From Gemmatimonadales bacterium (GTDB lineage Bacteria > Gemmatimonadota > Gemmatimonadetes > Gemmatimonadales > GWC2-71-9): a stretch of 56,592 bases of DNA. The notes beneath the pieces are model-generated. The model was not told where the DNA came from. It saw only the letters and a list, made by a program, of their open reading frames with translations, and searched no databases. Location: the NCBI GenBank assembly GCA_025935995.1, contig JAICUF010000007.1:1-56592 (forward strand), written 5' to 3'. The stretch's first letter is position 1, and each line of letters starts with the position of its first letter. Shown one piece after another: positions 26,891-31,683 of this stretch. Both the position numbers and the translations under genes were made by a program.

Positions 26891-27502
26891 ATGACCACTC
26901 CCTCCACCCTGGTCGTCCGCACCTTCTCGGATCGCGCCGAGGGGCTGTCGCATTTCGTGCTGCGGGCGGGCGAGGCGCCGCGGCTGCTCGCGTTCGACGA
27001 CGCCTTCGGGTGTCCGATCGAGACGGCGCTGTCGGCACTGGAGTGGACCGGAGCGGTGGGCATCCTGCAGGACGACGACCTGCTCCATGCCGGTCGCCTC
27101 ACGAGCGAGACGGCCGCCGCGGTGATCGAGCGGAAGACCGAGCGCGGGCGCCGCTACGTGTACCTGGGCCCGCGGCTCGACGCGCCGCCGATGGACGTCT
27201 TCGAGGGTGCGGTGCTGTTCGACGAGCCCGGGGTCAAGGCCGTCGAGTTCAGCCAGCGGGCGCATGCGCTGGCGCATTTCCTCCGCGCCACCGCCGGTGC
27301 CGGCGCGCTGCTCGCGCTCCTCGGCCGCCGCGCCCCCGAGCTGCGCCACATGCGGCGCTGGCTCCCGTCCGTCGTCCGCGAGCTCGATCTGCCGCGGCCG
27401 CTCGTCGGCGGCTGGTTTGCCGCGAGCGCCGCCGGATGTCTCTTCACCTCCACCGAAGGCGAGCCGGACTTCCGCTACATCGAAGTCGGCCTGGAATCAT
27501 GA
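26891..27502 (+). CDS. Protein of unknown function
   Basis: Cytosolic protein of 203 residues, mixed alpha/beta, with no recognised domain. Segments such as FSDRAEGLSHFVLRAGEAPR and EFSQRAHALAHFLRATAGAG look globular. There is no signal peptide. Its TGA overlaps the ATG of the next gene, so the two are translationally coupled. Confidence 0.75.
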   Translation: MTTPSTLVVRTFSDRAEGLSHFVLRAGEAPRLLAFDDAFGCPIETALSALEWTGAVGILQDDDLLHAGRLTSETAAAVIERKTERGRRYVYLGPRLDAPPMDVFEGAVLFDEPGVKAVEFSQRAHALAHFLRATAGAGALLALLGRRAPELRHMRRWLPSVVRELDLPRPLVGGWFAASAAGCLFTSTEGEPDFRYIEVGLES

Positions 27503-28062
27503 AGCGCACTGCCGTCCTCCTTGCTCTGTGCCTGGCCGCCGGACCCTCGCTCCGCGCCCAGGCGATCGTGCGGCCTGCCGCGCCGCTCGACGCCGGCCGC
27601 GTCCGGCTTCGCGACGCCATGCTCAACCTCCGCGACTCCCTCATCACGATCAACGGCGCCGCCGCGCGCCTCCAGCGTGACTTCCGGAATACGTCCGCTG
27701 CGGCGCTCACCGCGCGCGCGCGGGAGATTGCGCGGGCGTGCGTCCGCTCGACCCATGTGCTGCCGGCCACCCGCGACGTGATCGCGGCCGCTGCCGCACC
27801 GGCCGGCGCCCGCCGCCGCACGCAGACCGACATCCTGCGCTCGCTGGACTCGCTCGAGACCGCGCTGGCACGCTGCGACAGCGAGTTCGGCGCCCTCTCG
27901 AGCCCCGGCAAGGGGGAAGAGGTGCGCGGCTACGGCAACCGGCGGGCGGAGTCGGTTCTGCGGGCGCTCGGCGACTACGACAGCGCGGCGCGGAACTTCT
28001 TCATGGCGTGGGAGATCGAGGTCCGGCCCCTCGGCGGCCGTCCGAGCCCGATGGCGGGTTGA
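27499..28062 (+). CDS. Small secreted protein of unknown function
   Basis: Exported protein of 187 residues with signal peptide MKRTAVLLALCLAAGPSLRA-Q. The mature part is helical, with three Cys (ACVRST, ARCDSEF and the one in the signal peptide), and ends EIEVRPLGGRPSPMAG. It starts inside the stop codon of the previous gene (ATGA). No family is recognised. Confidence 0.75.
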   Translation: MKRTAVLLALCLAAGPSLRAQAIVRPAAPLDAGRVRLRDAMLNLRDSLITINGAAARLQRDFRNTSAAALTARAREIARACVRSTHVLPATRDVIAAAAAPAGARRRTQTDILRSLDSLETALARCDSEFGALSSPGKGEEVRGYGNRRAESVLRALGDYDSAARNFFMAWEIEVRPLGGRPSPMAG

Positions 28063-28091
28063 TCCGTCCACCAGGCTGCGGGGTGGGGAAT

Positions 28092-28177
28092 TGTGGATAC
28101 ACATCTCCACAAAATGTGGACGCGGGGGCGCAAGTTACCGCCCCGTGAATGAGTTGAGATTCCACAGACGATCCACA
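28092..28177. promoter_or_regulatory. Five TCCACA/TGTGGA hexamers in 86 bp
   Basis: TGTGGA at 28092, TCCACA at 28106, TGTGGA at 28115, TCCACA at 28161 and TCCACA at 28172. The second and third form a perfect inverted repeat with a 3-nt spacer. The first, extended to TGTGGATAC, matches the DnaA box TGTGGATAA at 8 of 9 positions; the others match less well. They lie just upstream of the putative RNA gene. Confidence 0.65.
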
Positions 28178-28204
28178 GACAAATCGCGTAACCCGAATAA
28201 AATC

Positions 28205-28238
28205 AGGCACTTGCGAGCTTTTCGCAGGTGCCTATCTT
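28205..28238 (+). promoter_or_regulatory. 12-bp hairpin overlapping a promoter-like TTGCGA-N16-TATCTT
   Basis: Arms 28205-28216 and 28222-28233 pair over 12 bp with one G-T pair and a 5-nt loop. The same bases can be read as a -35 (TTGCGA 28211-28216) and -10 (TATCTT 28233-28238) with 16-bp spacing. It may be a terminator for the preceding gene, an operator, or the promoter of the RNA below. Confidence 0.45.
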
Positions 28239-28244
28239 ATTGGC

Positions 28245-28666
28245 ACGTCAGTCGGCGAGCGGTTCTGGCCCCCGGCCAGGACAGCGACCTGAAGGACGGT
28301 TCGGGCGGCACGTCAGGGGAGATCGCCGACGCTTCCCAAGGGCTCAGGCGATCGTTGATCCTGGTGCACGCCGTTCGAACAGGTGAAGCCTATCGCGTGC
28401 TTCATCCGCCCCGATCTTGCGCCTCGGGATGCCGTGCGAATGGCCGGTCCGCGATTCGGCCTGACTCGCAGCGCTCATGGTAACGAACCAGGTGGGACGG
28501 CCATCCGGCCTGGGGATCGAAGCCGAGGCCCGCATGTCGCCCTCTCGAGCGGCTCACCAGCCGACGACGGTGACTGGGAGAAGAACAGCGGCAGCAATGC
28601 TCTGACCTCGGGATAGTTATCATGCGGAACGGCCGCGCAGCCACGACTGCGCGGCCTTTCTTTTTG
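28245..28666 (+). ncRNA. Putative structured non-coding RNA, about 420 nt, family not recognised
   Basis: A 610-bp interval between stop codons (28063-28672) contains no convincing protein gene. From about 28245 it is dense in local hairpins: 28265-28270/28274-28279 (6 bp, CCC loop), 28382-28389/28399-28406 (8 bp), 28410-28414/28424-28428, 28442-28446/28457-28461, 28488-28492/28509-28513 enclosing a 3-bp inner stem, and 28550-28554/28559-28563. It ends at a strong intrinsic terminator on the plus strand with no plus-strand gene nearer than 560 bp. I looked for RNase P, tmRNA, SRP and 6S signatures and did not find them. The 5' end rests only on the promoter-like site at 28211-28238. Confidence 0.5.
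28631..28665 (+). terminator. Strong intrinsic terminator, plus strand
   Basis: GGCCGCGCAG (28631-28640) and CTGCGCGGCC (28647-28656) form a perfect 10-bp stem with a 6-nt loop, followed by TTTCTTTTT. It works in the plus direction only, since no T-tract follows on the minus strand, so it is not the amidase terminator. Confidence 0.92.
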
Positions 28667-28672
28667 TATCCC

Positions 28673-30256
28673 TCAGAGCTCGGCGGTGGGGAGGAAGCGC
28701 GGGGGGCGGCGGAGCTTCGTGGCCTGCTCGAACGCGTGGGCAACGCGGATGAGCCGCCCCTCGCTCCACGCGGGCCCGAAGAACGAGATGCCGACCGGCA
28801 GCCCGAAGCTGTAGCCCGCGGGGACGGTGATGCTCGGATACCCGGCCACCGCGGCGGGCGTGGTGCTGGAGCCGCCGGCGCCGTGATCGCCGATCACCAG
28901 ATCGATCGGCCAGGGCGGCGCGTTGGATGGCGCCACGATCGCATCGAGCTTGTGCCGCCGGACGACGGCATCGATGCCCTCGGCACCGGCAAGACGGCGG
29001 TTGGCGGCGAGGGCGCGCCGGTAGGCCGGCGTGGTGAGCGGCCCCTTCTTCTGCGCCATCACCATGATCTCCTGCCCGAAGTAGCGGAGCTCGTCCTCGG
29101 CGTGGCGCTCGTTGAAGGCGATGATGTCGGCCAGCGACCGCACGGGTGAACTGGTGAGAGCGCCGAGGTACGCGTCGAGGTCGGCCTTGAATTCGTAGAG
29201 CAGGACCTGGAACTCGCCGTCGTCGTACTTCCCGGTGGTGGTGAGGTCGGCGGGGTCCACGATCACCGCGCCCGCCGACTTCATCGCCGCGATCGCATCC
29301 TCCATCAGCTTGTCGGTGCGCGGGTCGCTGCCGAAGAAATGCTTCCGCGCGACACCGATCCTGGCGCCCCTGAGGCCGGCCGGGTCGAGGAAGCGCGTAT
29401 AGTCGGCGGCGGCACCGGTCCGGCTCTGCGTGATCGCGTCGCGCGGATCCGCCCCGGCGAGGATGCCGAGGAGGGCGGCGGCGTCGGCCACGGAGCGGGC
29501 CATGGGGCCGGCGGTGTCCTGGCTGTGCGAGATCGGCACGATGCCGGAGCGGCTCACCAGCCCGATCGTGGGCTTGATTCCGACCAGCGACTGCACGCTC
29601 GACGGGCAGATGATGGAGCCGTCCGTCTCGGTGCCGACCGCAATGGCGCAGAAGTCGGCCGCGACGCCGGTGGCCGAGCCGGAGCTCGAGCCGCAGGGGG
29701 TCCGGTCGAGCGCGTACGCATTCCGCGTCTGGCCGCCGCGCCCGCTCCAGCCGCTGGTCGAGTGGGTGGAGCGGAAGTTGGCCCACTCGCTCAGGTTGGT
29801 CTTGCCCAGGATGACGGCGCCCGCCGCGCGGAGCCGCGTGACGATGAAGGCATCGCGCGGCACGGTCGAGCCCACCAGCGCGAGCGATCCCGCGGTCGTC
29901 TGCATCCGGTCGGCGGTGGCGATGTTGTCCTTGATGAGGACGGGAATGCCGTGCAGGGGGCCGCGCGCCCCGCGCGCCTTGCGCTCGGCATCGAGCGCCG
30001 CGGCCTGGGCGGGGGCATCGGGGTTGAGCTCGATGACGGCGCGGACGGCGGGCCCGCGGCGGTCCAGCTGGTCGATGCGGGCGAGATAGTTCGCGGTGAG
30101 CGCGGCGGAGGTGAGCGATCCGGCCGCCATCGCCCGGCCGAGCTCGGCGAGCGAAGCGTTCTGCCACCCGGCCTGGGGCGGAAGATCGAACGGCACGCGG
30201 AGCCCGGCGACGGCGGCGCCCGCCAGGGTGGACTGCAGGAAGTCGCGCCGCTTCAC
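28673..30256 (-). CDS. Amidase signature-family hydrolase with Tat-like signal
   Basis: Amidase-signature enzyme of 527 residues. The Ser-cisSer-Lys triad region is clear: Lys in GIPVLIKDNIATAD, then TPCGSSSGSATGVAADF and GTETDGSIICPSS carrying the two Ser. The N-terminus KRRDFLQSTLAGAAVAGL is a twin-arginine-type signal, so the protein is probably exported folded. The substrate cannot be told from sequence. GTG 30256 overlaps the TGA of the upstream HD-nuclease gene (GTGA), so translation is coupled. GGAG lies 5 nt before GTG. Confidence 0.93.
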   Translation of the reverse strand: MKRRDFLQSTLAGAAVAGLRVPFDLPPQAGWQNASLAELGRAMAAGSLTSAALTANYLARIDQLDRRGPAVRAVIELNPDAPAQAAALDAERKARGARGPLHGIPVLIKDNIATADRMQTTAGSLALVGSTVPRDAFIVTRLRAAGAVILGKTNLSEWANFRSTHSTSGWSGRGGQTRNAYALDRTPCGSSSGSATGVAADFCAIAVGTETDGSIICPSSVQSLVGIKPTIGLVSRSGIVPISHSQDTAGPMARSVADAAALLGILAGADPRDAITQSRTGAAADYTRFLDPAGLRGARIGVARKHFFGSDPRTDKLMEDAIAAMKSAGAVIVDPADLTTTGKYDDGEFQVLLYEFKADLDAYLGALTSSPVRSLADIIAFNERHAEDELRYFGQEIMVMAQKKGPLTTPAYRRALAANRRLAGAEGIDAVVRRHKLDAIVAPSNAPPWPIDLVIGDHGAGGSSTTPAAVAGYPSITVPAGYSFGLPVGISFFGPAWSEGRLIRVAHAFEQATKLRRPPRFLPTAEL

Positions 30257-31236
30257 CGCGGCTCCGCCCCCCAGTCGCTCCGGCCGCGATAGCCGCGGCG
30301 GCGGTCGATCCGCCAGTCGGGTCGTGCGCTCACCATCTCGTCGCCGGTGAAGCCGTCGCCGTCGCTCAGTACCTCGGCCATGCTGGCGGTCTTGGCACTG
30401 GCGTTGTCGGCGTAGTGGAGCACTTCGGCCTCGAGCGTCATCGGCGCCACGGGCGCTCCGAACTCGAGCTTCCCATGGTGCGAGAGGATGAGATGCTGGA
30501 GCAGCATCATCTCCTGATCGGTGCAGGGCCGGGGTTCGATGGGCGCGAGCCGCCGCTCCAGCATGAGCGACCCCAGCACCACGTGGCCCAGGAGCGAGCC
30601 GCATTCGGTGTACTCGAACGCGCCGTCCCAGGTGTACGACTCGAGCTTCCCGATGTCGTGCAGGAGCGCGCCGGCGAGCACGAGCTCCCCGTTGGCGCGG
30701 CAGACGCGACTGATCTGCCGACCGATCGTCGCCACTTCGCAGGTGTGACGGAGGAGACCGCCCAGCTCCGCGTGATGCCCGGCGAGACTGGCGGGGCACT
30801 CCTCGTAGCGGCGGCGGAAGTCGTCGTCGTCGTAGAAGAGCGCCAGCACACGCGCGAGTCGCGGCGCCGTGATCTCCGCCCGCCAGCCGTCGAGCGTCTT
30901 CCAGTAGCCGGAGACGTCGCCCACGGAGGGGAGGAGCTGGCGGCGGTCGACGCTGTCGCGGGGCAGGGGGCGGATCGAGGAGACGCGGAGCTGCCGCTTG
31001 CCGCGGAACTGGTCCACCTCGCCGATCACCTGCACCACGTCGCTCCGCGCGAGGCCGGCCACGGCGGTCTGGTCGGCGCCCCAGAAGGGCGCGGTGGCGA
31101 GGCGGCCGGTGGCGTTGCCCAGGGTGAGGACGGTGCAGTCCTTGTCTCCGAAGCTCTTGCGCTCGACCTCGAGCACCAGCAGCGGATCCTGCAGCCGCTC
31201 GCCCAGCGGCGCGCGCTTCAGATCTGGCATTGGCAT
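30253..31236 (-). CDS. YhaM-like OB-HD 3'-5' exoribonuclease
   Basis: A 327-residue protein with an N-terminal OB fold (about 15-95: VLTLGNATGRLATAPFWG, VVQVIGEVDQFRGKRQL) and an HD phosphohydrolase domain (about 150-290). HD metal ligands are visible in LLRHTCEVATIGRQI, GALLHDIGKLESYTW and LSHHGKLEFGAPV. This order is that of YhaM/CBF1, which trims RNA and single-stranded DNA 3' ends in Firmicutes. It starts with ATG 31236 or 31230; TAACTT lies 8 nt before the former. It is divergent from a Fis-type regulator. Confidence 0.88.
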   Translation of the reverse strand: MPMPDLKRAPLGERLQDPLLVLEVERKSFGDKDCTVLTLGNATGRLATAPFWGADQTAVAGLARSDVVQVIGEVDQFRGKRQLRVSSIRPLPRDSVDRRQLLPSVGDVSGYWKTLDGWRAEITAPRLARVLALFYDDDDFRRRYEECPASLAGHHAELGGLLRHTCEVATIGRQISRVCRANGELVLAGALLHDIGKLESYTWDGAFEYTECGSLLGHVVLGSLMLERRLAPIEPRPCTDQEMMLLQHLILSHHGKLEFGAPVAPMTLEAEVLHYADNASAKTASMAEVLSDGDGFTGDEMVSARPDWRIDRRRGYRGRSDWGAEPR

Positions 31237-31244
31237 GGAGACCC

Positions 31245-31250
31245 AAGTTA
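31245..31250 (-). promoter_or_regulatory. -10-like TAACTT, possible leaderless start
   Basis: TANNNT box 8 nt before the ATG at 31236; no ribosome-binding site. Confidence 0.35.
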
Positions 31251-31280
31251 GCGCGGAATGGCCAATCCCGCAGCGGCCAT

Positions 31281-31286
31281 TAGCTT
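31281..31286 (+). promoter_or_regulatory. -10-like TAGCTT, possible leaderless start
   Basis: TANNNT box 7 nt before the ATG at 31294, divergent from the box at 31245-31250. Confidence 0.4.
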
Positions 31287-31293
31287 CCGAGCC

Positions 31294-31683
31294 ATGCGGC
31301 CGCTGCACATTCTGCTCGTGGAGCCCGACCCTGACCGGCGGCAGGCCGCCGGTGACGCGCTCCGCACCGCCGGCCACGTGGTCGTGGCGGTGGAGGACGG
31401 GACGCTGGCCGCGGAGGCGCTGGTGGCGGAGCCCGGCGGCGCGGCACCGCCCTTCGACGCGGCGATGGTGGACCTCTCGCTCCCGGGGCTCGACCTCGCG
31501 GCGCTCCGCTCGGCACTCGCCCCCGCGGATCCGGGGGTGCCGGACACCCTCGACGCGGCGGAGCGCCGGCAGATCGTCCTCGCGCTGCTGCACACCGGCG
31601 GCAACCGCCGGGACGCGGCGCGGCTGCTCGGCATCGCGCGGTCGACGCTGCTCAACAAGATCCGCCGCTACGGCCTCACCTGA
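31294..31683 (+). CDS. Shortened receiver joined to a Fis-type DNA-binding domain
   Basis: A 129-residue regulator. Residues 1-65 match only the front half of a receiver: ILLVEPDPDRRQAAGDAL (acidic pocket) and AAMVDLSLPGLDL, where Asp is the expected phosphorylation site. The second half (Thr/Ser and Lys switch residues) is missing. Residues 85-129 are a Fis/NtrC-type helix-turn-helix (IVLALLHTGGNRRDAARLLG, RSTLLNKIRRYGL), as in RegA/ActR regulators. There is no frameshift sign and the DNA-binding part is complete, so it may work without standard phospho-switching. It overlaps the convergent pilin gene by 8 bp. Confidence 0.82.
   Translation: MRPLHILLVEPDPDRRQAAGDALRTAGHVVVAVEDGTLAAEALVAEPGGAAPPFDAAMVDLSLPGLDLAALRSALAPADPGVPDTLDAAERRQIVLALLHTGGNRRDAARLLGIARSTLLNKIRRYGLT

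Follow-up and report, generated by a model that had tools for sequence, protein, structure and literature searches.

The RNA locus

The window, that is, the whole stretch of DNA analyzed here, comprises 56,592 nucleotides from a Gemmatimonadales bacterium. At the locus of interest, the overlapping genes for the proteins designated c0 and c22 are followed by a gap that extends from the end of the upstream reading frame at 28062 to the end of a convergent amidase frame at about 28673 and contains a putative gene for a structured RNA of about 420 nt (Table 1). An earlier note on this DNA, made from the sequence alone, had claimed that this gap encompasses no convincing protein gene and ends in an intrinsic terminator that acts only in the plus direction, with a promoter-like site upstream. 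All three statements stand, the position of the promoter being refined to one that is conserved in 62 homologs. The gap is real, and an open reading frame at the locus was rejected because no frame is consistently open across the homologs; near the RNA core, the stop-free runs span 14-46 codons in each frame, and the substitutions in the core track base pairing. A terminator scan detected the terminator (28631-28656 and the adjacent T-run) on the plus strand only. Folding of the single sequence yields a z-score of -2.2, with 2 of 100 shuffled sequences folding equally well; because one sequence folds only moderately better than its shuffles, the case for the RNA rests on comparison of homologs. 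In this comparison, the locus combines a conserved promoter, a terminator, a covarying fold and the lack of a conserved reading frame, the hallmarks of a stand-alone structured non-coding RNA gene.

Table 1. Features of the RNA locus and the adjacent genes (positions in the window)
Feature	Position	Strand	Description
c0	26891..27502	+	203 aa; apparent tandem duplication; putative RNA partner
c22	27499..28062	+	187 aa; signal-peptide-like start; overlaps the end of c0
TCCACA/TGTGGA hexamer array	28092..28177	.	copies at 28092, 28106, 28115, 28161, 28172; blocks conserved in the alignment
Upstream promoter element	28189..28214	+	conserved, TAACCCGAATAAAATCAGGCACTTGC; 38 occurrences, in 37 of the 61 genomes
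Promoter	28211..28238	+	-35 TTGCGA, 16-nt spacer, -10 TATCTT
RNA gene	~28245-28666	+	~420 nt; own promoter and terminator
5' domain	28245..28380	+	variable; absent from short forms; from the helix map
P1	28254-28258/28287-28291	+	5' domain
P1a	28262-28269/28275-28282	+	5' domain
P2	28299-28309/28370-28380	+	5' domain
P2b	28314-28318/28359-28363	+	5' domain
P2c	28321-28332/28342-28353	+	5' domain; significant pair 28323-28351 (phylogenetic null)
Pseudoknotted core	28382..28475	+	P3, P4, P5 with P5a, pseudoknot
P3	28382-28390/28397-28406	+	core
P4	28407-28414/28424-28431	+	core; pair 28410-28428 significant
Pseudoknot	28419-28422 with 28471-28474	+	core; first strand in the P4 loop
P5	28435-28439/28466-28470	+	core; encloses P5a; pair 28439-28466 significant
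P5a	28441-28449/28453-28462	+	core; inside P5
3' domain	28476..28624	+	closed by P6, with P7-P10 inside; conserved GAACC, GGGGAU and AGAAGAAC
P6	28476-28484/28616-28624	+	pairs 28478-28622 and 28481-28619 significant
Intrinsic terminator	28626..28666	+	stem 28626-28642/28646-28661, then T-run; pair 28638-28649 significant against the phylogenetic null

Promoter and upstream elements

The geometry of the promoter is retained across the 62 homologs: the -35 box is mostly TTGCGC, TTGCGA or TTGCGG, the spacer is 16 nt long in 57 of them, and the -10 box reads TATATT, TATCTT or TAGATT in 56. Another promoter, proposed by a consensus scan at 28176-28203, was set aside given that the one kept in the homologs is at 28211-28238, and a hairpin at 28205-28233 that was scanned as terminator-like overlaps the promoter and is not conserved as a hairpin in the homologs. 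Just upstream of the promoter, and overlapping it, is the element TAAVCCGAANNAANNNNNGCRCTTGC, which was detected at the RNA loci in 37 of the 61 compared genomes, with one occurrence per genome except for the two in G005, a genome with two RNAs; a reversed-pattern control produced zero matches in the 61 genomes. The hexamers of the upstream array are strongly enriched. Within the 230 nt that precede the -10 box of the 62 homologs, TCCACA occurs 9.6 times per kb compared to 0.22 per kb in the flanks (44-fold), and TGTGGA occurs 6.2 times per kb compared to 0.21 (29-fold). The hexamers contain a DnaA-box-like core without the full DnaA box consensus.

Conserved secondary structure

In the alignment of the homologs, a short promoter block is conserved and is followed by a 5' domain that varies and by a core and a 3' domain that are both highly conserved; the terminator varies in sequence, with its pairing kept. 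At three loci (L012, L040 and L041), the 5' domain is missing, and the core comes immediately after the promoter. Among 38 sequences of the 98-nt core, 98.0% of the cells are paired, and both sides are altered in 21 of the 31 pairs, one of these compensatory changes being in the pseudoknot. None of 500 shuffles matched the fold of the core, and versions of the structure slid along the alignment drop to about 40% pairing, a comparison that is inflated because the structure (four helices and the pseudoknot) was drawn on the same alignment, which does not affect the double-sided changes. The pseudoknot pairs in all core sequences, and the C-G to U-A exchange observed in seven of these may go back to a single event in one clade. 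For the complete RNA, the null for covariation in 62 sequences was a set of 200 alignments that were simulated on the inferred tree. At E <= 0.05, significance was reached by six column pairs, which are located in five helices and all belong to the RNAalifold structure, and at E <= 1, all 10 of the 10 column pairs fell within the predicted structure. The P3 loop (UCGCG) is complementary to the P5a loop (CGCGA), and both are almost invariant; a loop-loop contact between them is possible.

Comparison with known RNA families

The RNA locus and 12 homologous loci were compared to Rfam 15, at the gathering threshold and also at E <= 10. There was no match at the gathering threshold at any of these loci, and nothing credible at the locus at E <= 10. 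More specifically, no match to RNase P RNA (RF00010) was detected at 28000-28750 even at E <= 10, none to tmRNA (RF00023), SRP RNA (RF00169) or 6S RNA (RF00013) was found at the RNA locus, and there was none to OLE RNA at the locus or the 12 homologous loci; the consensus fold differs from that of 6S RNA in being a multi-hairpin structure with a pseudoknot. The genome has its own RNase P RNA (G000:C99:15839-16223), and RNase P is encoded elsewhere in 56 of the 61 genomes, as is a full-length tmRNA in most of the 61, in both cases in families with and without the new RNA; SRP RNA was identified elsewhere in 40 of 46 genomes. A search of the 61 genomes (families f1, f2 and f3) for 6S RNA found none above the Rfam cut-off, and it was detected in control genomes such as E. 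coli and B. subtilis. 6S RNA may be missing or diverged in the order Gemmatimonadales; replacement of 6S by the new RNA is not indicated, given that a family without this RNA is also devoid of detectable 6S. The sole Rfam match in the window at the gathering threshold is a TPP riboswitch at 1125-1229 on the plus strand. We found no paper on the RNA in the literature.

Distribution and additional copies

A DNA search identified the region, from about 28092 to 28665, in 39 of the 61 genomes, the window's own included; in G017, which this search missed, a shortened RNA is located beside c0. With a covariance model of the core, applied to 395 sampled genomes of the phylum Gemmatimonadota, the RNA was detected in 80 genomes, 74 of family f1 and 6 of family f3. 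Among these 395 genomes, the core covariance model found no RNA outside the two families, although the filters of the genome search are strict, so that remote homologs may be missed. In a broader search of 84,980 species genomes, the core pattern produced 57 matches, all under Gemmatimonadota or unspecific titles save three (L058, L061 and L095, titled Actinomycetota, Verrucomicrobiota and Acidimicrobiaceae, respectively), which have no full-profile match and were attributed to chance. These sequence searches support the restriction of the RNA to a single clade.

Eight genomes contain a further copy of the RNA away from c0, mostly reduced to the core and in most cases with a terminator-like hairpin at the end. 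The second copies L038, L162, L163, L164, L165, L166 and L167 are mostly of this core-only type, away from c0, and no neighbor gene common to more than two of the second copies was found. G005 encodes two RNAs (L040 and L161): the copy next to c0 is short, and the full-length copy lacks c0; both have the conserved promoter element.

The linked protein and other neighbors

The gene most commonly found next to the RNA is c0. A profile of this protein detected it in 82 of the 395 genomes, and the RNA and c0 are present together in 79 (phi 0.97), a co-occurrence that is new here and was not seen in the earlier note. The four discordant genomes are explained by the location of one of the two genes at a contig end: in G375, the RNA is within about 530 nt of the end, and in G009, G337 and G390, c0 is at or near it. 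In all 78 assessable genomes, those with both genes on the same contig, the gap between the RNA core and c0 is 172-940 nt; in 72 of them, c0 precedes the RNA on the same strand, and in the other 6, which are the f3 genomes, it is downstream and convergent. The RNA and c0 are found in one clade only, so that one acquisition may be enough to explain why they occur together. The stronger argument, and the main independent support for the linkage, comes from f3, where c0 is on the other side of the RNA and on the opposite strand and is nonetheless next to it.

The c0 protein belongs to no Pfam or NCBIfam family and has no clear PHROGs match. The AlphaFold2 model is confident (pLDDT 86.8) and looks like a tandem duplication; in agreement with this, the two halves of the protein form an internal repeat (hhalign E 3.5e-5). 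Searches for similar folds and solved structures returned no match at E <= 0.001, and the clamp-like (DnaN/PCNA) and CYTH-like matches, which are weak (TM about 0.2-0.27), were not credited. The protein is acidic (pI 5.1-6.1) and contains a conserved RRAPELRHxRRW stretch.

The c22 gene was found at only a few RNA loci and is not a fixed part of the arrangement; one c22 homolog has a weak HEPN match below the cut-off (E 0.004). An HD-domain protein that resembles the 3'-5' exoribonuclease YhaM, although below the family cut-off, is encoded at 30256-31461 on the minus strand, and the cluster to which this YhaM-like exonuclease belongs recurs near the RNA in both f1 and f3. The genes c4, c6, c7 and c8 also recur around the locus, in line with general synteny. 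The genes downstream of the RNA vary and are often convergent, so that the fixed same-strand downstream gene typical of a riboswitch or a cis-acting leader is not observed.

Interpretation and alternatives

The locus almost certainly harbors a genuine and independent gene for a structured RNA whose family is absent from Rfam 15, as judged by sequence comparison. The earlier note had proposed a structured non-coding RNA gene without a recognized family and without signatures of RNase P, tmRNA, SRP or 6S RNA. Both proposals are substantiated: the covariance-model searches are negative at the locus and, at the gathering threshold, Rfam is silent on the 12 homologous loci as well, homologs exist across two families of Gemmatimonadales, the covariation is strong in the core and against a phylogeny-aware null, and the promoter and terminator fit a gene of this kind. 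Comparison of genomes supports the boundaries of the gene, its promoter, the fold of the RNA, its confinement to a single clade and its linkage to c0. We favor, with a probability of roughly 0.6, the reading that this independent gene encodes a trans-acting structured RNA of about 420 nt that probably works with c0 in the manner of OLE RNA with OapA. The dedicated promoter would drive transcription of a stable RNA, and the RNA's own intrinsic terminator would end the transcript; the RNA would then act in trans, either within a small ribonucleoprotein or as a regulator, with the neighboring c0 as its predicted partner. We infer expression and abundance of the RNA, its binding to c0, and a role in housekeeping or growth control. 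Joint function is suggested by the fact that the RNA almost always adjoins c0.

Several observations are at odds with such a partnership. Both the RNA and c0 are confined to one clade, where a single gain may account for their co-occurrence; acidity of the kind seen in c0 is not common among RNA-binding proteins, and the fold of c0 is without a match; and other neighbors, such as the YhaM-like exonuclease, are kept in both families as well. The main rival, which we regard as possible but doubtful, is a stand-alone, ModT-like trans-acting RNA, be it a regulator, a scaffold or a ribozyme, that has no need of c0, the latter being only a clade-specific neighbor in a syntenic region. The acidic character of c0 fits this alternative, as does the general synteny that extends to c4, c6, c7 and c8, and the extra copies in eight genomes, which count against the partnership, suggest that the RNA may function without an adjacent c0. 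This rival is difficult to reconcile with the presence of c0 less than 1 kb away in every assessable genome, with its persistent adjacency in f3 despite the swap of side and strand, and with the near-identical distribution of the two genes. The alternative raised in the earlier note, a long 3' UTR of the gene ending at 28062, or else a cis-acting leader of a downstream gene, appears very improbable. In 72 of 78 genomes, the RNA and the gene upstream of it do share a strand, but a private conserved promoter separates the two, the same neighbor gene is downstream and convergent in f3, copies of the RNA occur elsewhere, away from c0, and in the window, the RNA is followed by a terminator and a convergent gene.

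A strongly diverged RNase P, tmRNA, SRP or 6S RNA, which the RNA resembles in its size, compact fold and origin-proximal location, is likewise highly unlikely, given that the genomes have RNase P, tmRNA and SRP RNA genes at other positions, that Rfam is negative, and that 6S RNA is below the cut-off in all 61 genomes, including those of the family without the new RNA. The location itself is to be read with caution: in the 9 genomes in which a single contig carries both genes, the RNA and dnaA are 36-362 kb apart, a proximity that is suggestive only because one-contig sampling favors short distances. In G035, the GC-skew switch is found at about 650 kb, dnaA at 671 kb and the RNA at 855 kb; in G019, the respective positions are about 990, 1016 and 947 kb. 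This is suggestive of a locus that is origin-proximal but is not the origin. That the locus is a replication origin or a DnaA-titration site, with the hairpins being DNA structures, is scarcely credible, despite the TCCACA/TGTGGA array upstream of the RNA and the origin-proximal position: an origin at the locus was rejected because the GC-skew switch is by dnaA and not at the RNA in both genomes, and covariation that accepts G-U pairs, along with the promoter and the terminator, points to an RNA.

Relation to known systems and implications

OLE RNA is about 600 nt long, and OapA is a membrane protein. The nearest analog of the arrangement described here is that of OLE RNA in Bacillota, a large structured stand-alone RNA whose gene is often located beside a gene for an uncharacterized protein, an adjacency that led to the identification of OapA (PMC11332333). 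As in the OLE/OapA case, the RNA gene neighbors a protein gene, c0, and shares its distribution; unlike OLE, the RNA is about 420 nt long, shows no Rfam similarity and comes from Gemmatimonadota, and c0 is without a Pfam or NCBIfam family. The raiA-motif RNA is represented in Bacillota and Actinomycetota. This RNA, ModT, is likewise structured and conserved, and it acts in trans (PMC11706538). In contrast to ModT, the RNA analyzed here has no Rfam match and a fixed protein neighbor. RNase P RNA and tmRNA are pseudoknotted and usually encoded by single-copy housekeeping genes; the new RNA is similar to them in size and in possessing a pseudoknot and differs in that both are encoded elsewhere, with no match at the locus. 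6S RNA is a stable stand-alone RNA of about 190 nt with a central bubble; the likeness is in the stand-alone gene, and the differences are in size, fold and the absence of a match.

Bacteria have few large structured RNAs with a conserved core, and the earlier examples proved to act as ribozymes, scaffolds or global regulators. In a more speculative version of the reading with c0 as the partner, unlikely in its full form, the locus would encode a ribonucleoprotein machine of Gemmatimonadales in which a pseudoknotted, possibly catalytic RNA joins an obligate protein of a new fold, with a dedicated origin-near promoter and a replication- or growth-linked regulator acting on the TCCACA array. The RNA and c0 constitute a concrete, testable pair, and the covariance model and the promoter signature make the RNA searchable. 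The RNA has no family in Rfam 15 and is near-universal in two families that are known mostly from metagenome-assembled genomes.
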